Shown: positions 1-9,569 of the stretch, one piece after another
Position numbering within the stretch: the first letter of the stretch is position 1
Layout: every line of letters begins with the position of its first letter
From: an uncultured Cytophagales bacterium
Lineage (GTDB): Bacteria; Bacteroidota; Bacteroidia; Cytophagales; Thermoflexibacteraceae
Direction: 5' to 3'
NCBI GenBank assembly: GCA_938039675.1
Contig: CALHUI010000003.1
Coordinates: 124,001 to 188,000 of the forward strand
Length of the DNA: 64,000 nucleotides
Made by a program: the position numbers and the translations under genes
Notes under the pieces: model-generated
Database searches by the model: none
What the model was told of the DNA's origin: nothing
Seen by the model: only the letters and a program-made list of their open reading frames with translations

Positions 1-1
1 T

Positions 2-2443
2 TGTCAGGCAACAAGCGTAACAATGGCGGCTAACAGCCCTGTCAACGGGCGCGGTTTGTGGCAGCAAATCAGCGGACCTAATGCGGCGCGCATTGAAGAG
101 CCGACCAATCCGCGAACTGTCATTGCAGGCTTGCGTCCGGGTACATATACTTTCCGCTGGACAATCACAGGCAGCGGCTGCCCCGAAACTTCCGACGATG
201 TAGTCGTTACCATCAGTGCGCCTGCAGTGGCAGGTACTGCGCAGACTGTGTGTGTAGGTAGCGTTGTACGCCTTGCCGCCGAACCTGTGGCAGTAGGCAC
301 AGGTCGCTGGACACAAGTAGAAGGTTCTGCCGTTACGATTGATAACCCCACTTCGCCTAATGCCACATTAAGCAACCTTGCACCGGGCAACTACCGCTTC
401 CGCTGGACAATCACGGGCGGCGATTGCAACCCGGGCAGCAGCGATGAGGTTACAATTACTGTTGTAGGCATCACGGCGTCAGAGGGTCAAGCAAACGTAA
501 GCGATGCAGAATACAGCACCTGCCCCAATGAAATTCCAAGCAACGTAACTATTACCGTATCGCCGACCCGTACGGGCGTTCGCTACGAACTGCGCAATGG
601 CTCAACCGTGTTGGCAAGTGCTTTGGGTAATGGCGGTGCGCTGCGCTTTACTATTCCTGCACCTGTGCAAAGCCGCGAACTGACCGTAGTAGCCATTGCA
701 TCAGCTAACGGCTTAACTTGTGCTGAGGTAGAACTAATCGACCGTGCAGTAATTACGGCGCGTCCTTGTCCACCGCCGCCTGTAACCGACCGCCCTGTAA
801 TTGGCGTAGCCAAACAGGCACTGCCTGCTGTGCGTCAAGTAAACGGTGCGTTTCATATCCCGATTGTCATTACGGTGCGCAACTACGGCAACGTACCGCT
901 GACCAACATTGTGGTATCGGACGATATGACCAACGTATTCCCTGCACCTGCGCGTTACAGCATTGTGCGCCAGCCGACCGCAACGGGTTCGTTGGTAGTC
1001 AATCCGCAATTTGACGGAACGGCTGCACAGCCGAATTTGGTAACGGGCGGCAGATTAGAAGTAGGTGAATCGCAAACGGTAACTTTTGTGGTAAGCCTGA
1101 TTCCGAACCGCGCCACAGGACCGTTCTTTAATACTGCTATTGCAGAAGGTTCGCACAACGCAACCCGCGTGCGCGATATTTCGGTGGATGGACAAAACCC
1201 TGACCCGAACTTTGATGGCGACCCGCGTGAAACAAGCCCAACCATTATCCAAGTGCCGCAGCCTGTCAATCGTGCACCGATTGCCGTAGATGACCTGTTC
1301 ACTGTGCAGGGTTGCAGCGAAAACAACGGCGGCAATATCTTAGCCAATGACCGCGACCCCGACGAAGACGAACTGACCGTAACCGTCGTAACCAATGCCA
1401 CAACCCGCCATGGCGGACGCATCAGCATTGCCGCCGACGGTACGATTAGCTACACGCCTGCTTTCGGCTTTACGGGAACGGATGAGTTTACTTACGAAGT
1501 ATGCGACCGTGTAACGCCGCCATTGTGTGCACGCGCTACGATTACCTTCAACGTAATGGCTTGTCCGAATCGTCCGCCGCGTGCACCGGATATTACTCTG
1601 ACTACCGACAACTGTACCAATATTGACCAAGTGCTGGAAATTCCGTTGGTAGATGCAGACGGCGACCCCGTGCGCGTAACCGTTATCTCTGATTTGGTAA
1701 CGCCGCTGCGCGGCATCTTGAACCTCTCTGCTACGGGCAGATTAACTTACCGTCCGGCACTAAATGCAGAAGGGCAAGAGCGCATCACTTACCAAGTATG
1801 CGACAACCGCAACCCTGTGCTGTGTGCTACGGGAACAATTTTCATCAACGTGTTCCTCTGCACCAACCAGCCGCCTGTAGTAACGCCGCGCCGCGAAAAC
1901 ACCGACAACTGTACCGAAATCAGGGGCAGCGTGTTGCAAAACGTAACCGACCCGAACGGCGACCGCGTATCGGTACGTGCCGTAACGGGGGCACGCTCCA
2001 AAAACGGCGGTGTGTTCTCTATCAACCCCGACGGTAGCTTTATCTATACGCCGCCGCAAGGATTCACCGGACAGGATGAGTTCACTTACACCGTTTGCGA
2101 CAACGGCAACCCGTTGAGCAAGTGTACGGAAGGTAAAGTAACAGTAGATGTGTTGCAATGTCGTCAGGTGTTCATCCCGCGCGGTTTCTCACCAAACGGC
2201 GACGGCGTGAACGATAAGTTTGAGATTCTGGGGGCTGACCGCTACGACATCCACTTGCGTGTGTACAACCGCTGGGGCAACCTTGTATTTGAAGACGAAC
2301 ACTATAAAAACACATGGGACGGCACGGCGCAAGGCATAGGCATTGTCATCGGCGAAAAAGTACCCGACGGCACGTACTATTTCATCGTAGACCTGCGCGA
2401 CGGCAGCAAACCGATAGTGGACTTCTTAACCATTCAGCGATAA
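2..2443 (+). CDS. Secreted multi-repeat protein with T9SS type B C-terminal sorting domain (5'-truncated)
   Basis: The frame is open from the left edge, so the true start lies outside the window; 813 codons are visible. The protein is a chain of beta-sandwich modules: two PKD-like repeats (about residues 1-70 and 72-145, both ending in FRWTITG), a DUF11-like segment (about 264-400, with NYGNVPLTNIVV), three cadherin/Ig-like repeats starting near 422, 522 and 621, and a type B sorting domain from about 720 (FIPRGFSPNGDGVNDKF, YNRWGNLVF, DGTYYFIV). In Bacteroidota this C-terminus directs export through T9SS, usually with a dedicated PorP/SprF partner. Such a gene follows 90 bp downstream. Role on the cell surface (adhesin or gliding related) is inference. 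Confidence 0.9.
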   Translation, partial: CQATSVTMAANSPVNGRGLWQQISGPNAARIEEPTNPRTVIAGLRPGTYTFRWTITGSGCPETSDDVVVTISAPAVAGTAQTVCVGSVVRLAAEPVAVGTGRWTQVEGSAVTIDNPTSPNATLSNLAPGNYRFRWTITGGDCNPGSSDEVTITVVGITASEGQANVSDAEYSTCPNEIPSNVTITVSPTRTGVRYELRNGSTVLASALGNGGALRFTIPAPVQSRELTVVAIASANGLTCAEVELIDRAVITARPCPPPPVTDRPVIGVAKQALPAVRQVNGAFHIPIVITVRNYGNVPLTNIVVSDDMTNVFPAPARYSIVRQPTATGSLVVNPQFDGTAAQPNLVTGGRLEVGESQTVTFVVSLIPNRATGPFFNTAIAEGSHNATRVRDISVDGQNPDPNFDGDPRETSPTIIQVPQPVNRAPIAVDDLFTVQGCSENNGGNILANDRDPDEDELTVTVVTNATTRHGGRISIAADGTISYTPAFGFTGTDEFTYEVCDRVTPPLCARATITFNVMACPNRPPRAPDITLTTDNCTNIDQVLEIPLVDADGDPVRVTVISDLVTPLRGILNLSATGRLTYRPALNAEGQERITYQVCDNRNPVLCATGTIFINVFLCTNQPPVVTPRRENTDNCTEIRGSVLQNVTDPNGDRVSVRAVTGARSKNGGVFSINPDGSFIYTPPQGFTGQDEFTYTVCDNGNPLSKCTEGKVTVDVLQCRQVFIPRGFSPNGDGVNDKFEILGADRYDIHLRVYNRWGNLVFEDEHYKNTWDGTAQGIGIVIGEKVPDGTYYFIVDLRDGSKPIVDFLTIQR

Positions 2444-2533: not shown

Positions 2534-3466
2534 ATGAAAAAAACGCTACTCTTTTTCCTTCTTCTTGTTGCAAGTCTGCCGCTTTGGGCGCAGCAAGACC
2601 CCATGTACTCACAGTATATGTTCAACGGCTTGGTGCTGAACCCTGCCTATGCGGGTAGCCGCGAAGCAATCAACATTACCGCGCTGCATCGCACGCAGTG
2701 GGTAGGCATCCCCGGCGCACCGACTACGACCACCTTTTCGGCTCATGCCCCTGTCAAAAAAGACAACATTGGACTGGGGCTGATTTTCGTCAATGACCGC
2801 ATCGGTGTTATGGAAACTAACAACATTGGTTTCAACTATGCCTACATGCTCAGAATGCGCAAAGGCGTATTGTCTTTGGGTTTGCAGGCTTCGGTGATGC
2901 AGTACCGCGCCGATTTTGCATCGGTGATTCACAATTTTTCCCCTAATGTTTTTGACCCTTCATTTTCTTCGGTGGTCAATCGCTGGTTACCCAATTTCGG
3001 AACGGGGGCGTATTACTACACCGACCGTTTCTACGCAGGTTTGTCCGTGCCCAATATTCTGACTAACAACCTCAACGGGGAAACCAACGTGGCATTTATC
3101 GGCAACAACCGCGCCCGACAGTATCGCCATGCCTTCCTGACTTCGGGCTATGTATTCGACATCACCAAAGGCTTGAAATTGCGCCCTTCATTCCTTTTGA
3201 AATATGTGGATGGTGCACCGTTAGAACTTGATTTGAATGCCAACTTGTGGCTCTACGATATGTTTGCCGTGGGGCTGTCCTATCGTTCGTTTGATTCCGT
3301 TGATGCTCTGTTTGAATTTCAGGTAACGCCGCAGCTTTCCTTAGGCTATGCCTACGACTATACGCTTACGCCGCTGGGGAAATACACGTCCGGCACGCAT
3401 GAAATCATGATTCGTTACGAGTTTGGTTTTGGCAAATCGCGCATTATCACGCCGCGCTATTTTTAA
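2534..3466 (+). CDS. PorP/SprF family type IX secretion system outer-membrane protein
   Basis: A 310-residue outer-membrane beta-barrel protein of the PorP/SprF family. The ATG at 2534 is chosen because it begins a clear signal peptide (MKKTLLFFLLLVASLPLWAQ) followed by the family hallmark QDPMYSQYMFNGLVLNPAYAGS; an upstream in-frame start would spoil the signal. The rest shows alternating amphipathic strands and ends in a strand rich in aromatic residues. PorP/SprF proteins work with T9SS, and paralogues are typically encoded directly after large type B sorting-domain proteins that they help to secrete or anchor, exactly as here. It probably serves the gene upstream and is cotranscribed with the OmpA gene 37 bp downstream. 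Confidence 0.93.
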   Translation: MKKTLLFFLLLVASLPLWAQQDPMYSQYMFNGLVLNPAYAGSREAINITALHRTQWVGIPGAPTTTTFSAHAPVKKDNIGLGLIFVNDRIGVMETNNIGFNYAYMLRMRKGVLSLGLQASVMQYRADFASVIHNFSPNVFDPSFSSVVNRWLPNFGTGAYYYTDRFYAGLSVPNILTNNLNGETNVAFIGNNRARQYRHAFLTSGYVFDITKGLKLRPSFLLKYVDGAPLELDLNANLWLYDMFAVGLSYRSFDSVDALFEFQVTPQLSLGYAYDYTLTPLGKYTSGTHEIMIRYEFGFGKSRIITPRYF

Positions 3467-3503: not shown

Positions 3504-5504
3504 ATGCGTAACGTTTTCACCTTCTTCCTTTTGCTCATGCTGCCTGCTTTTGCCTATGCGCAAAAGGTGCGCATGAAATTAGCCAACAGCAAATACGAGC
3601 AGTTCCACTATGCCGATGCCATTATGATGTTTGAAGACATCGTGGCATCCAATCCGAATAATTTTGAGGCAACCGAAAAATTGGCGCACAGCTATCGCAA
3701 AATCAACGACAGCAAAAAAGCCGAAGAGTGGTATGCCAAAGTAGTGCAGAACGCCAAGTCGCAGCCTATCAACATGCTCTACTATGCGCAGGCATTGGCA
3801 ATGAACGGCAAATATGCCGAGTCGCGCAAATGGTTTGCAGCCTATTCGGCGGCAGTGAAAAACGACCCCCGCGGCGACCGCTTTGCCCGCGCCTATGCCG
3901 ATTCGGTCATGCGCCGATTCTTTCAGGATTCCGCCCGCTATGTGATAGACACGGTCGGTTTCAATTCGCCGCAGGCAGATTTTAGCCCCATGTTTTTCCG
4001 CAATGGGATTATTTTTGCTTCCAACCGCACGCCGAGCGCAATAACGCCGATTAAGCATACTTTCCAATGGAACAAAACACCGTATTTAGACTTGTACTTT
4101 GCCCAAAACGGCGGCAACAGTGCCGACCGCCTGCGCAAAAGCATCAATTCGCGCTACCACGAAGGTCCCGTAACGTTCTACCGTTCCTACGATTCCATCA
4201 TCTTTACGCGCAACAACTACCTTAACGGCAAGTATCAAACCGCCAAAGACAAGACTAACAAGCTGAAATTGTACTTTGCCAATACCAAAACGGATGCTTC
4301 CGACGATTGGACAAACATTACCGAGTTCCCTTACAACAGCAACGAATATTCTACGGGACACCCTGCACTAAGCACCGACGGGCAAACGCTCTATTTTGTT
4401 TCCGATATGCCCGGCGGCTACGGCGGAACGGATATTTACATGTCCGTATTTCGCAACGGGCGTTGGAGCAAACCGCAGAACTTAGGTGCCGAAATCAATA
4501 CCAAGGGCAACGAAATGTTTCCGTTTATTGATGAAAACGGCGATTTGTACTTTGCCTCTAACGGACACCCCGGGCTGGGCGGATTGGATATTTTTGTGGC
4601 GCGCAGCAAAAACGGTAAGTTTACTGCACCGCGCAACATGGGTGCACCCATTAACAGCAGCCAAGACGATTTTGCCCTCATTTACAGCGAAGACTTAGAC
4701 GAAGGCTATTTCACTTCCAACCGCGAGGGCGGCATGGGCGACGACGATATTTACCGATTCACCGTGAAGCGTTGTAAATTTATCATCGCAGCCGTTAATG
4801 CCCGCACCAAAGAAATCATCACTAAGGCAAAAGTAGAGGCAATAGAGGAAGAAACGGGTGCAAATACCCGCATACAGGCTTTGAACGATACACTGTTTAC
4901 CTTCAAGCCCTTGTTTCAGTCTAATTACAAGTTGCACGCGGTCAAAGAAGGTTTCACCGATGGTTACGCTGCCATTTCCGATTCGGTGCTGGCGACTTGT
5001 TTGCTGAAAGGCTTAGACGTTAGCGATACAATTTTCATCCCCTTAGAGCCTGCCGAGCCTGTGGTAGCCAAAGGCGGCGAGGGCAAACCGCCCGTTTCCG
5101 AATCCACCGGTCGTCCGCGCTATCGCTACAAAGGTGACCCGAACGTGAAAGTAATTGAGGTGAAAAATATCTATTACGATTTTGACAAGTTCAACATCCG
5201 CCCCGATGCGGCACGCGAGTTAGACAAACTTATTGCTTTGATGAACGAGTATCCGTCGCTGAAAGTGGAACTTTCTTCGCATACCGACACTCGTGCCGAC
5301 AACCTGTACAACATCCGTTTGGCACAGCGCCGTTCGCGTTCGGCATACAACTACCTGGTCATGCGCGGCATAGACCCTGCCCGACTGATTGTGAACTCTT
5401 TCGGCGAAAACAAATTGGTCGTAGATTGCCCCGACTTTTCCGATTGCAGCGAAGAAGAGCACCAGTTGAACCGCCGCACGGAAATTATTATCTTGTCGTA
5501 TTAA
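3504..5504 (+). CDS. PorE-like OmpA family protein: TPR, PD40 propeller, regulatory domain, OmpA C-terminus
   Basis: A 666-residue envelope protein. The ATG at 3504 begins a signal peptide ending FAYAQ. In order it shows TPR-like helices (about 20-140), a WD40/PD40 beta-propeller (about 170-425, with repeated YFVSDMPGGYGGTDIY and LYFASNGHPGLGGLDIF blades), a short carboxypeptidase-regulatory-like domain (about 427-530) and an OmpA peptidoglycan-binding domain (about 555-666, YYDFDKFNIRPDA, SSHTDTRADNLYN, NRRTEI). The same order is known for PorE of Porphyromonas gingivalis, a T9SS component that ties the machinery to peptidoglycan. In many Bacteroidota such genes sit next to PorP/SprF. It is either the core PorE or a paralogue dedicated to the secreted protein at the left edge. 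Confidence 0.85.
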   Translation: MRNVFTFFLLLMLPAFAYAQKVRMKLANSKYEQFHYADAIMMFEDIVASNPNNFEATEKLAHSYRKINDSKKAEEWYAKVVQNAKSQPINMLYYAQALAMNGKYAESRKWFAAYSAAVKNDPRGDRFARAYADSVMRRFFQDSARYVIDTVGFNSPQADFSPMFFRNGIIFASNRTPSAITPIKHTFQWNKTPYLDLYFAQNGGNSADRLRKSINSRYHEGPVTFYRSYDSIIFTRNNYLNGKYQTAKDKTNKLKLYFANTKTDASDDWTNITEFPYNSNEYSTGHPALSTDGQTLYFVSDMPGGYGGTDIYMSVFRNGRWSKPQNLGAEINTKGNEMFPFIDENGDLYFASNGHPGLGGLDIFVARSKNGKFTAPRNMGAPINSSQDDFALIYSEDLDEGYFTSNREGGMGDDDIYRFTVKRCKFIIAAVNARTKEIITKAKVEAIEEETGANTRIQALNDTLFTFKPLFQSNYKLHAVKEGFTDGYAAISDSVLATCLLKGLDVSDTIFIPLEPAEPVVAKGGEGKPPVSESTGRPRYRYKGDPNVKVIEVKNIYYDFDKFNIRPDAARELDKLIALMNEYPSLKVELSSHTDTRADNLYNIRLAQRRSRSAYNYLVMRGIDPARLIVNSFGENKLVVDCPDFSDCSEEEHQLNRRTEIIILSY

Positions 5505-5636: not shown

Positions 5637-8489
5637 ATGAATAGATGGAAAATATTAGCAGGCATCATATTGGCATTTTTTGCCGTTACCACCGCATGGG
5701 CGCAAGGCGCAAAAGACATAGAGCCGTTCCCGCCCTTTGAGGGTTTTGAGGCAGTCTATGCTCAACAAACGCCGTTTGTGGTACAGGGCAATAAGCGAGG
5801 CGAAAAAATCCATATCAAATACAACTTCAAAGGCAGCAATACGCCTGCCTTTGTTACCGTTTTGGACTATTACCTACAACTCACCGAAGCCAAAGGCGGC
5901 AAAGCGCAAAAGCGACAACCCAACCAACAGATTTTTGAATACACCCAAAACGGTAAAGACTTTTGGATACAGATTACCGAATCGCGCTTGGGTTCATACG
6001 AACTGATTGGCATTGAGAAAGATACCCCGAAACCGGATGCCCTTGCCGACGATGTACCCCAAGATGCACCCGGCAGCAAGGACTATCCCCTCTTGCCGCG
6101 CCTGCCCAACTACTATATCGCCTCTTATGGCGAAGAAAATTTCTTTTCCAACGGGCAGGCTTCAGGCTATCAATACCGAATCAACTACAAGTTTGACGTG
6201 GAATCGGGCGAAACCCCGATGAAAGATGAGCGCGTTGTGCAACACTATATTGCCAAAGTGCGCGGCTATGGCGGCAAAATTATCCGCAACGACGGCGCAA
6301 CTGCTACGATGGACTTCACCAAAGACCAAGTGTACCGCTGGGTACAGGTCGGCAGTTTTGGCACGAGTTACGAATTGATTGTTGTAGAAAAAGACCTGAC
6401 AGGGCGCACACAGTATGCGCAAAAGTCCAAGCCCTACGAAGTAGTGCAGCCTGTGCCTGCCGAAAAGCAGCGCATTGTAGAAAATGCACTCGCCAAAACC
6501 GAAGCAGCAAAAACCCAACCCGCCGAGCAAAAAACGCAGCCCCGCGAGCAGCCCAAGAAACAGGAAACCGCAATTGCGGCAGCCCCCAAAGAACAGCCGA
6601 AAAAAGAAGCCCCTGCCTTTGAGCCGCAACCGACCGTCGCTGAGGAAAAAATGCCCAAGCAACAACCCGAAAAGGTTGACACGGCTCAATCGCAAACTGC
6701 CATTGTGCAAGACTTGACAGGTGCAAAAGACTACGACCCGCTGGGGCGATTCAAAGGCTATGTTATTAGCAACTACAAAATCGAAGATTTTTACATGGGC
6801 TATAAGCGCAGCGGCTTGAAATATCAAATTAACTACTTGTGGGAAAATCCGAGCATCAAGCCACCCGCCGACGAGCAGGTGATAGCCTATTACATCGGAA
6901 AAATCAAAGCATTGGGCGGTAGAGTCATCCGTAACGACGGAGCAACCGCTACTATGGAGTTTACCGAAAACAACATCTACCGATGGGTACAAGTCGGGGC
7001 GTTTGGGTTTAACTACGAGCTTATTGTCGTAGAAAAAGACCTCAACCGCGACTACACCCAACCCGTAGCGCAAAACAAGCCCTACGAAGTAGTGGAGGAG
7101 CGGTCGGGCGTACAAATCCGCACGGCAACGGGGGCAGCTGACGAACAGACCATTTCAAGCACCCCGACGCTTTCCCGCGAGCAGCGCGAAATACTTGTAA
7201 ATGCACGCCCCGTGCCCGTTCCGCAGGCAGATGCCGAAAATGCCCGCGACTACGAAGGTTTGCCCCGCCGCAGCGGCTACGTTATCAACAGCTACCGCGA
7301 AGAGGATTTCTACATGGGCTACAAGCGCAGCGGCATTAAGTACCACATCAATTACATTTGGAGCGATGCGGCAAGTGCCCCGCCTGCCGATGAAGACATC
7401 ATAGGCTACTACAAAAACCTTGTCAAGCAATACAAGGGGCGCATCATCCGCGATGACGGCCCTACTGCCACGCTGGAATATACCCAAAACAATATTTACC
7501 GATGGATTCAGATTGGTTCGTTTGGCAAAAGTTACGAACTGGTGCTTGTAGAAAAAGACCCTAACCGCAACTATTCGCAACCCGTTTCGCAGAACAAACC
7601 TTATACCGTAGAGCAAATACGCAGCGGCGGTCAGTTGGTGCAGGGTGTATCGGCAAGTGCGGGCATTCTTTCCCCTTCGGCAGCCGAGCCAATCAGTGAG
7701 TCAGGTATTGCGCCCGATGCCGTTGCGCCGCGTATCTACCCCACAGCCGACGCAGAGGGCAGTACCGACTTCCACCTGATGAAGCGCCTACCCGGTTACT
7801 TGATTACTTTCTACAACGAAGGCGACTACCCGCTCACGCCCGGGCAGATGGGCTACAAATACCAAATGGTTTATACATGGGCAGATGCCAACGCTTCGCC
7901 CGTTCCTGATGAGCAAGTCGTGCGGCATTATGTAAACCTTGCCAAGTCCTACGGCGGCAGAGCCATCCGCGACGACGGCGCAACCGCCACGCTGGAATTT
8001 TTTGACGGGGCAAACTACTACTGGGTGCAAGTCGGTTCGTTTGGCAACAGCTATGAACTTATTGTTATAGAAAAAGCCGCCGCAGGAGATGCAGCGGCAG
8101 TTAATCCTGAAACGGCAACTAAGCGCATGTTCCGCAATTTGACCACACAGGGAAAAGTTGTGATGCAAAATATTCTGTTTGAAAACGAAAACAGTGCTGC
8201 ATTGAGGGTAGAAAGCGATGCCGCCTTGGCACTCATTGCCCGCCTGCTTGCCGACCAACCTTCGTTAAAGTTGGTAATTGTGGTGCATACTGCCAAAGGC
8301 AAAAGCATAGAAGCCGACTTGCTGCTTTCCGACCAACGCGCTAAAGCCATTGCGCAGCGACTGGTTGAAAAGTTTAACGTATCGGAAAGCCGCATAGAGG
8401 CACGCGGCGTAGGTTCGCTTGCTCCCCTTGCGCCCAACGACACCAACGGTCGCATGGAGAATGAGCGCATAGAACTGCTTGTTTATTGA
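5637..8489 (+). CDS. OmpA family protein with five tandem copies of a ~105-residue module
   Basis: A 950-residue protein with a signal peptide (AFFAVTTAWAQ) from the ATG at 5637; an in-frame GTG at 5592 would put extra residues before the signal. It contains five modules, near residues 35-131 (divergent), 147-256, 363-475, 535-648 and 709-813. Copies 2-5 share an opening KDYxxLxRxxGY, a central YxINYxW, IIRNDGATATMEF and a closing YRWVQVGSFGxSYELIVVEKD. A low-complexity K/P/Q/E linker (about 260-355) separates copies 2 and 3. The C-terminus (about 838-950) is an OmpA-like domain with an atypical VVHTAKGK where SHTD is usual, so peptidoglycan binding may be altered. The modules resemble the N-terminal part of some proteobacterial OmpA-like proteins (inference). 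It follows the PorE-like gene by 132 bp. Confidence 0.8.
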   Translation: MNRWKILAGIILAFFAVTTAWAQGAKDIEPFPPFEGFEAVYAQQTPFVVQGNKRGEKIHIKYNFKGSNTPAFVTVLDYYLQLTEAKGGKAQKRQPNQQIFEYTQNGKDFWIQITESRLGSYELIGIEKDTPKPDALADDVPQDAPGSKDYPLLPRLPNYYIASYGEENFFSNGQASGYQYRINYKFDVESGETPMKDERVVQHYIAKVRGYGGKIIRNDGATATMDFTKDQVYRWVQVGSFGTSYELIVVEKDLTGRTQYAQKSKPYEVVQPVPAEKQRIVENALAKTEAAKTQPAEQKTQPREQPKKQETAIAAAPKEQPKKEAPAFEPQPTVAEEKMPKQQPEKVDTAQSQTAIVQDLTGAKDYDPLGRFKGYVISNYKIEDFYMGYKRSGLKYQINYLWENPSIKPPADEQVIAYYIGKIKALGGRVIRNDGATATMEFTENNIYRWVQVGAFGFNYELIVVEKDLNRDYTQPVAQNKPYEVVEERSGVQIRTATGAADEQTISSTPTLSREQREILVNARPVPVPQADAENARDYEGLPRRSGYVINSYREEDFYMGYKRSGIKYHINYIWSDAASAPPADEDIIGYYKNLVKQYKGRIIRDDGPTATLEYTQNNIYRWIQIGSFGKSYELVLVEKDPNRNYSQPVSQNKPYTVEQIRSGGQLVQGVSASAGILSPSAAEPISESGIAPDAVAPRIYPTADAEGSTDFHLMKRLPGYLITFYNEGDYPLTPGQMGYKYQMVYTWADANASPVPDEQVVRHYVNLAKSYGGRAIRDDGATATLEFFDGANYYWVQVGSFGNSYELIVIEKAAAGDAAAVNPETATKRMFRNLTTQGKVVMQNILFENENSAALRVESDAALALIARLLADQPSLKLVIVVHTAKGKSIEADLLLSDQRAKAIAQRLVEKFNVSESRIEARGVGSLAPLAPNDTNGRMENERIELLVY

Positions 8490-8572: not shown

Positions 8573-9061
8573 GTGGAGCGTCCGTTTTCTGTTCTTCTTG
8601 CAGAAAAACTTGTTGATATAGTTTTTGACGAACCCTATGGTCAGGTGCTGTACTTCCCCCGCCTGCATACTGTTTTTGTGGAGATGATTGCTTCATTTTC
8701 TCATCGGCAATACAAGCAGGTGTACACAGCGGGCTACGATGTGCTGAAGCGTTTGCAGGCGAAAGCCTGTGTGGTCAGTCAATCGCGCAGTTTCGGCTCT
8801 TCACTTCAAGACAGAAGTTGGTTGCTGATGTATTGGGTTCTTCTGTTGAGCCGCACCTTACCTACGAAAGAATTTTTGATGATAGGAATTAAAGATTCGG
8901 AAAATAACACCAAGCGCTGGATTGCTGACTATTGGGAGCGTAGTTTTGCGTCAATTGCACCTTTTTCAGCAAATCCTGTTTCAAGTTTTGACGATGCAAT
9001 CAGGCTTATCAAAGAGGCGCATCAAATCCGATACCTTGCAATTACTGACAAACAAATGTGA
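8573..9061 (+). CDS. Hypothetical protein, first of a tandem paralogous pair
   Basis: A 162-residue protein I do not recognise, without signal peptide or membrane segment. The start is a GTG at 8573, preceded by AGGGGG about 6 nt upstream; the next in-frame Met would remove conserved residues. It aligns along its length with the next gene: shared PYGQxLYxP, FSHxxY, ACxxSQxxSxGSSxQDRxWL, IGI/IGL and KRWIADYxE. The alternating strand/helix pattern and length would fit a STAS- or SpoIIAA-like fold, which is only a guess. It lies 83 bp after the OmpA repeat gene and may belong to the same transcript. Confidence 0.75.
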   Translation: MERPFSVLLAEKLVDIVFDEPYGQVLYFPRLHTVFVEMIASFSHRQYKQVYTAGYDVLKRLQAKACVVSQSRSFGSSLQDRSWLLMYWVLLLSRTLPTKEFLMIGIKDSENNTKRWIADYWERSFASIAPFSANPVSSFDDAIRLIKEAHQIRYLAITDKQM

Positions 9062-9095
9062 TTACATGAGTCGTTGGTCTAAATGATTGAAACAG

Positions 9096-9569
9096 ATGCA
9101 CACATTTCCGCAGTCAGCTTTGTATGGCAGTGTGCCCGAAGTGCTTTTTTCCAAGCCTTATGGTCAAATTTTATATTACCCGGACTATCAGGTGTTTTAT
9201 ACGGAAATTATCGGCAAATTTAGCCATCAGGAGTACAGGCATTTATATGAGAGCCTGTTAGCGTTTGTAAAGAAGTACCCTGTACGGGCGTGTATTTCCA
9301 GTCAGGCAAAAAGCAGTGGCTCCTCTATGCAAGACAGAGCATGGTTGGTAACTTCTTGGTTTTCACAACTGAAAGCGGCCGTATCCTCCGATTTTATACT
9401 CATTGGCTTGCGCGAGGCACACGATACAGGTGCATTTAAACGTTGGATTGCCGACTATTTGGAAAAAACGCTTAGTTCTATGGCACCGTTTACAGTCAAA
9501 TCAATGCCTGATTTTGACAGTGCAATAATGTATGTTTTAGAGCAAGCTAAATTAACTTCACTAACCTAA
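9096..9569 (+). CDS. Hypothetical protein, second of a tandem paralogous pair
   Basis: A 157-residue soluble protein, paralogue of the gene ending at 9061. ATG at 9096 is preferred; a TTG at 9087 would add three residues. The conserved stretch reads RACISSQAKSSGSSMQDRAW and is followed by KRWIADYLEKTLSSMAPF, matching its neighbour closely while the N-termini differ, as after an old tandem duplication. Function unknown; a small sensory or anti-sigma-antagonist-like fold is possible but unproven. Its last 23 bp overlap the end of cdsA on the other strand, so the two genes are convergent. Confidence 0.75.
   Translation: MHTFPQSALYGSVPEVLFSKPYGQILYYPDYQVFYTEIIGKFSHQEYRHLYESLLAFVKKYPVRACISSQAKSSGSSMQDRAWLVTSWFSQLKAAVSSDFILIGLREAHDTGAFKRWIADYLEKTLSSMAPFTVKSMPDFDSAIMYVLEQAKLTSLT

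Follow-up and report, generated by a model that had tools for sequence, protein, structure and literature searches.

A tandem DUF4892/DcrB-like protein with an altered OmpA domain as a candidate fourth member of a type-B adhesin locus in Cytophagales

What could be the role of a protein that carries five copies of one module ahead of an OmpA domain with a changed peptidoglycan pocket, and that is encoded next to genes linked to the type IX secretion system (T9SS)? This question is raised by a gene in a 64,000-nucleotide stretch of DNA (the window) from an uncultured Cytophagales bacterium of the Thermoflexibacteraceae (GenBank assembly GCA_938039675.1, contig CALHUI010000003.1, positions 124,001 to 188,000). 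Its product, hereafter the repeat protein, is encoded behind a giant adhesin, a PorP/SprF-family shuttle and a PorE-like protein (Table 1). As judged from the sequences, we consider it reasonably likely that the repeat protein is a periplasmic accessory subunit, the fourth, of a type-B adhesin complex with static anchoring.

A preliminary description of the gene had noticed a module of about 105 residues present five times, as four close copies and one divergent copy, and alignment scores bear this out. Pairwise local scores were 258-378 among copies 2-5 and 83-116 between copy 1 and copies 2-5, against a top score of 58 for any pair in a shuffle control (300 shuffles each). Amino-acid identity to copy 3 was 60% for copy 4, 52% for copy 2, 46% for copy 5 and 30% for copy 1. 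In DNA the copies are only 57-64% identical, suggesting an old repeat that exists at the protein level. A motif, [NS][KQ]PYx[VL], was found in 15 of 15 places after modules 2-4 of the five-copy proteins and modules 2-3 of their three-copy relatives, and was absent after modules 1 and 5 of these tandem proteins; it may serve in binding or simply belong to the repeat unit. The ratio of nonsynonymous to synonymous substitution rates (dN/dS), calculated for the two most closely related species, was 0.09 for the modules, 0.31 for the linkers and 0.17 for the OmpA domain, the last value indicating that this altered domain is maintained by purifying selection. The N-terminus reads by eye as a predicted type I signal peptide without a lipobox. 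Long open reading frames (ORFs) also run antisense over the module DNA (window 6162-7115, 7155-7616 and 7788-8258, minus strand); these are probably shadow frames and not genes, and their peptides resemble each other because the sense strand is repeated.

Structure prediction, a check proposed with the preliminary description, returned a repeated fold. The model of copy 3, built from an alignment of 19 modules (the window and L093-L096), reached a predicted local distance difference test score (pLDDT) of 95.2 and consists of two strands, a helix and four strands. A model of the full chain has the same element order five times, followed by the OmpA domain; its confidence is low (mean pLDDT 61.8, predicted template modelling score (pTM) 0.25), and the linkers, at pLDDT below 50, are probably disordered. 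A chance repeat or an unknown fold is ruled out by the shuffle scores and by the two models. The top VIA-align match of the module was the N-domain of PA1624 of P. aeruginosa (6td9; Z 10.3, rmsd 2.5 A, 100 of 107 residues, 13% identity), followed by DcrB (Z 9.6), while the remaining rows, with EagT6 and SciW at about 7, had Z <=7.5, values described by the tool as common. The fold was assigned from VIA-align, as Foldseek alone was weaker (best DcrB at E 0.019, none at E<=0.001). PA1624, which belongs to DUF4892, combines a DcrB/Mog1p/PsbP-like N-domain with a C-domain that is OmpA-like and, according to its authors, lacks glycan-binding motifs (PMC7716261). It therefore resembles the repeat protein in having the fold of the module with an OmpA-like domain after it, but it carries one module instead of five.

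The sequence link to this family is stepwise. A direct match to PF16234 (DUF4892) was found neither for the repeat protein at E<=10 nor in its genome, PF16234 was not among the best 25 of 26 Pfam families listed for 17 module-OmpA members, and no protein in 40 genomes of the class was over its cut-off. Likewise, the repeat protein had no match to PF08786, the family (DUF1795) of DcrB and the Eag proteins that share its fold, among Pfam families at E<=10, and the module profiles A2 and A6 had no credible match among solved structures in the PDB (best E 0.035 and 0.022), PA1624 and DcrB not being listed. The tandem-module profile A2 does retrieve single-copy proteins of other Bacteroidota (best 1.3e-9), and profile A6, which includes such single-copy proteins, retrieves further proteins, including some of 330-350 residues (for example L123 at 2.5e-10 and L126 at 8.4e-8). 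A Pfam scan of 10 of the 13 proteins found with A6 gave three matches to PF16234 (L126, 42.5 bits; L123, 27.3; L124, 16.7), with L126 alone exceeding the cut-off of 28.8 bits. The module is thus continuous in sequence with DUF4892 through intermediates and has the fold of the PA1624 N-domain, and because of this profile link and the fold result we place it in that group: it is a DUF4892/DcrB-like domain. The first interpretation has to be corrected here, as the module is not an orphan; elsewhere in the sampled genomes it is nearly always single, ahead of a normal OmpA domain. No earlier description of tandem copies was found in the literature searched, as judged from titles, abstract openings and text passages and with few subscription journals covered.

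Copy number among close relatives, which the preliminary description had proposed to compare, indeed varies. In a sample of the order, 19 of 291 genomes matched, with five copies in three genomes of one genus, three copies in three genomes and one copy in 13; the five-copy and three-copy forms belong to different genera of the same Cytophagales family, where the tandem form occurs in 6 of 13 genomes. Samples of the phylum and of the class (the latter with profile A6) gave 7 of 395 and 14 of 395 matching genomes, the window's own genome included in both. Named carriers are Thermoflexibacter ruber, a cultured organism with the three-copy form, Bernardetiaceae bacterium SKYG123 and two Cytophagales metagenome-assembled genomes. 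In the three-copy proteins (L040, L041, L042) the linkers from the last module to OmpA are N/Q-rich, and the linker of the five-copy form is K/Q/P/E-rich. Single-copy proteins of Bacteroidota (for example L097, L098, L119 and L126) share the homologous module and the OmpA domain with the tandem proteins but have one module. A protein of genome G423, from the phylum sample (L102 1093-2364, minus strand), has two tandem modules in 424 aa and a normal D-N-R pocket, apparently a separate, independent duplication. A further match to the module profile, of 145 aa, lies in genome G722 (L125 1426-1860, plus strand), and no OmpA pocket was found in it.

In a tree of 32 modules (108 columns, 8 of 29 inner branches open, with a long-branch warning for copy 1 and several single-copy rows), copy 1 formed one clade across both genera (97/100) and each copy position its own clade within each genus. 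In the window's genus, copy 3 was sister to copy 4 (86/89), copies 2 and 3 were not single clades across the two genera, and the single-copy modules stood apart (89/99, with an open fork). As each position forms its own clade within each genus, that of copy 1 spanning both genera, the module copies are stable, and a hypervariable or homogenising tandem repeat is ruled out by these position-specific clades and by the low DNA identity.

The OmpA domain behind the modules is altered, as the preliminary description had remarked from the segment VVHTAKGK (aa 882-889). In PorE, diaminopimelic acid (DAP) is contacted by the side chains of Asp576, Asn584 and Arg591, and Arg591 forms a salt bridge with the DAP carboxylate (PMC7192894). 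The corresponding pocket residues of the repeat protein are A886, D894 and R901, so that the DAP-binding triad of Asp, Asn and Arg is not present. We found A-D-R in 6 of 6 tandem proteins and D-N-R in 5 of 5 PorE-like neighbours seen, whereas the Asp was kept in all 32 OmpA-bearing proteins among 33 relatives outside the tandem group, collected from the three samples (31 D-N-R, one D-D-R). The repeat gene is single in its genome, where ten further matches span the OmpA part only (nine at E<=7.1e-6, one weak at 0.07), and the seven of these that were fetched all have D-N-R. These comparisons suggest that the OmpA domain of the repeat protein has lost the usual mode of DAP binding.

The same residues bear on whether the repeat protein could be a second peptidoglycan anchor, with its pocket adapted to a different or modified stem peptide, while its modules would set the distance to the outer membrane. 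In keeping with such an anchor, the OmpA fold is clear, the salt-bridging Arg is kept as R901 and the altered pocket is conserved rather than decayed. We nevertheless consider it unlikely, as two of the three DAP-contacting side chains are replaced in all six tandem proteins and a domain with the canonical triad is already supplied by the PorE-like neighbour. For the same reasons, the suggestion that the repeat protein helps to connect the outer membrane with peptidoglycan is plausible only indirectly.

The four genes lie on the same strand, with gaps of 90, 37 and 132 bases between adhesin, PorP, PorE-like and repeat gene. The giant adhesin matches profiles of PKD, cadherin-like and Big domains and bears a type-B T9SS signal (TIGR04131, 46 bits over a cut-off of 35; CHU_C PF13585, 82.4 bits). 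While the PorP/SprF neighbour had been named correctly in the preliminary description, the neighbour given there as PorE should be called PorE-like, as it scores below the NCBIfam cut-offs for PorE (336.8 of 600) and CHU_0125 (432.7 of 620). The repeat protein itself is not a PorE, since NF052230 gave 30.7 of 600 bits in the OmpA region only and Pfam gave no TPR or PD40 match; neither did the Pfam scan reveal a type A or type B substrate signal, the C-terminus being the OmpA domain. A scan for terminators and promoters stayed near the shuffled expectation.

The order type-B adhesin, PorP/SprF, PorE-like, repeat gene was found in 5 of 6 carriers (G000, G002, G003, G008, G012; the type-B signal was profile-tested on the adhesin of the window), so that these five genomes have the gene content of a static anchor complex of type-B adhesin, PorP and PorE-like protein. 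PorP and the PorE-like gene are separated in G008 and G012 by one or two ORFs (138-214 codons). Orthologs of PorP (at least 68% identity) and of the PorE-like protein (at least 65%) were present in 6 of 6 carriers and in 0 of 7 other genomes of the family, the best in these seven being 51%, reached by PorP in G005 and G007 and by a fragment of a PorE-like protein in G004. SprA is found in 12 of 13 family genomes, the miss being the 62% complete G012, against 6 of 13 for the repeat protein, which rules out a core T9SS component. Moreover, G001, of the same genus as the window, has SprA and lacks the repeat protein and the orthologs of PorP and the PorE-like protein, so the locus is an accessory type-B one. 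Of the T9SS role first proposed, the conserved link to a T9SS locus thus holds, and what changes is that this is a giant-adhesin locus and not the core machinery.

These data also address whether the repeat protein is a general envelope protein like those of the single-copy family, merely sitting in an adhesin operon. The module-OmpA architecture is indeed scattered in the sampled Bacteroidota outside adhesin loci. Among 14 neighbourhoods of relatives fetched, 13 had no BLASTP match (E<=1e-3, at which very divergent partners could escape) to the window's PorP, to its PorE-like part before OmpA or to its adhesin C-terminus, and that of G044 had a weak PorP match (26%) at a distance of about 5 kb. 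We regard this explanation as quite unlikely, considering that the gene order is kept across two genera, that the partners co-occur with the repeat protein as described, and that three or more module copies, or the altered pocket, were seen only in the form of this one family among the genomes sampled.

The literature offers a setting for such a locus. PorP of P. gingivalis is bound by PorE and in turn binds the type-B protein PG1035; from this work came the proposal that type-B proteins which do not move are anchored to the wall via PorP and PorE-like proteins (PMC9143113). In F. johnsoniae, five operons each combine a PorE homolog with a type-B substrate and the shuttle of that substrate, a static complex being proposed for one of them (PMC12618676). 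The moving SprF is bound to GldK via a twin-cysteine tail (PMC12635249). As the PorP of the window has no cysteine, a covalent link to GldK of this kind is ruled out, in agreement with the static class and not with the gliding one. Taken together with the work on PorE, PorP and type-B proteins, this makes the window locus resemble a member of the static class to which one more gene has been added. Fjoh_3950 and other PorE-like proteins, as well as PorE itself from P. gingivalis, have in common with the repeat protein a C-terminal OmpA domain, a periplasmic location (predicted for the repeat protein) and a tie to type-B proteins and PorP-like ones (PMC9143113, PMC12618676). PorE differs in having TPR and beta-propeller parts instead of DUF4892-like modules and in its D-N-R pocket, and the locus encodes a separate PorE-like protein besides the repeat protein.

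The fold brings in yet another candidate function, a periplasmic chaperone that keeps the adhesin of more than 5,000 residues secretion-competent, one segment per module. EagT6 and SciW are among the fold matches, and the Eag (DUF1795) chaperones of the type VI secretion system, which are homologous to DcrB, bind transmembrane segments of effectors (PMC7773334). Their Z of about 7 however falls among the values of folds that are only similarly arranged, an OmpA domain at the C-terminus is unexpected in a chaperone, and the number of modules is not related to the length of the adhesin: its open frames have 5,221 and 5,685 codons in two five-copy genomes, compared with 5,673 and 5,659 codons in two genomes of the three-copy form, which rules out such tracking. 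We therefore hold a chaperone to be very improbable.

Returning to the accessory subunit, the repeat protein would be exported by Sec and remain non-lipidated and soluble in the periplasm. The adhesin would be exported through SprA and then stay bound to its PorP shuttle, as in P. gingivalis, and the PorE-like protein would be the wall anchor, connecting PorP with peptidoglycan. In the periplasm, this complex would be joined by the repeat protein, whose modules could act as a flexible multivalent chain of protein-binding beads, perhaps with participation of the KPYxV motifs; candidate partners of the chain are PorP, the PorE-like protein, the C-terminal domain of the adhesin or neighbouring complexes. 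The OmpA fold of the repeat protein would have changed from anchoring by DAP binding to recognising proteins or another ligand. We thus infer that the repeat protein serves as a scaffold in the periplasm and that its beads are binding sites for components of the complex. A more specific version, in which an undescribed fourth subunit (relative to the literature searched) combines a tandem DUF4892/DcrB-like scaffold with a now protein-recognising OmpA domain and clusters complexes or holds the adhesin during export, is put forward tentatively and is the less probable claim.

The accessory-subunit reading is supported by synteny and partner co-occurrence, by the A-D-R pocket set against the Asp of the relatives, by modules and OmpA domain under purifying selection with stable copies and a fold predicted five times, and by the literature on PorE, PorP and wall-tied static type-B proteins. 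Several observations weigh against it. In G011 the repeat gene, PorP and the PorE-like gene lie on three different contigs. The carriers are six genomes in two genera only, so the co-occurrence may reflect few inheritance events. Adhesin size does not track module number, the shared fold shows no function, and the weak full-chain model is uninformative on contacts between modules. Finally, the ancestral job of the module-OmpA proteins was probably independent of the T9SS, as elsewhere this architecture shows no link to it.

Behind the repeat gene lie two adjacent paralogous genes for small proteins of about 160 aa, 37-41% identical in cross-matches (window 8573-9061 and 9087-9569, plus strand) and without Pfam or NCBIfam match; the pair is also found behind the repeat gene in G002 and was not found there in G003.

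Table 1. Positions in the window of the repeat gene, its parts and the genes upstream of it.
Feature	Position	Strand	Evidence
Giant adhesin gene, 5,206 aa, 3' part in window	1..2443, start at window -13177	+	
PorP/SprF-family shuttle protein, 310 aa, no cysteine	2534..3466	+	291 bits
PorE-like TPR/PD40/OmpA protein, 666 aa, pocket D-N-R intact	3504..5504	+	
Repeat protein gene, 950 aa, no cysteine	5637..8489	+	ORF from ATG 5637 to stop ending 8489
Signal peptide region (predicted), aa 1-23, no lipobox cysteine	5637..5705	+	read by eye; model helix aa 2-22
Module 1 (divergent), aa 24-129	5706..6023	+	alignment scores, structure model
Module 2, aa 146-253	6072..6395	+	alignment scores, structure model
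K/Q/P/E-rich long linker, modules 2 to 3, aa 254-361	6396..6719	+	pLDDT <50 over aa 261-359
KPYEV motif after module 2	6429..6443	+	sequence
Module 3, aa 362-468	6720..7040	+	alignment scores, structure model
KPYEV motif after module 3	7077..7091	+	sequence
Module 4, aa 535-641	7239..7559	+	alignment scores, structure model
KPYTV motif after module 4	7596..7610	+	sequence
Module 5, aa 708-814	7758..8078	+	alignment scores, structure model
OmpA domain PF00691, aa 851-943	8187..8465	+	47.5 bits vs cut-off 27.2
Altered DAP pocket segment HTAKGKSIEADLLLSDQR, aa 884-901, A-D-R replacing D-N-R	8286..8339	+	

In conclusion, a three-part model of adhesin, PorP shuttle and PorE-like protein is only just emerging for the fixation of static type-B T9SS adhesins to the wall, and the locus described here adds a conserved fourth protein to it. 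The greater interest lies in three linked changes, that is multiplication of the module, recruitment to an adhesin locus and change of the pocket, and not in the repeat alone. The repeat protein may give a functional setting to DUF4892/DcrB-like domains, and judging by its residues it would be a natural case of an OmpA domain apparently without standard wall binding, yet under selection. As the three-copy form is carried by the cultured Thermoflexibacter ruber, the idea is testable.

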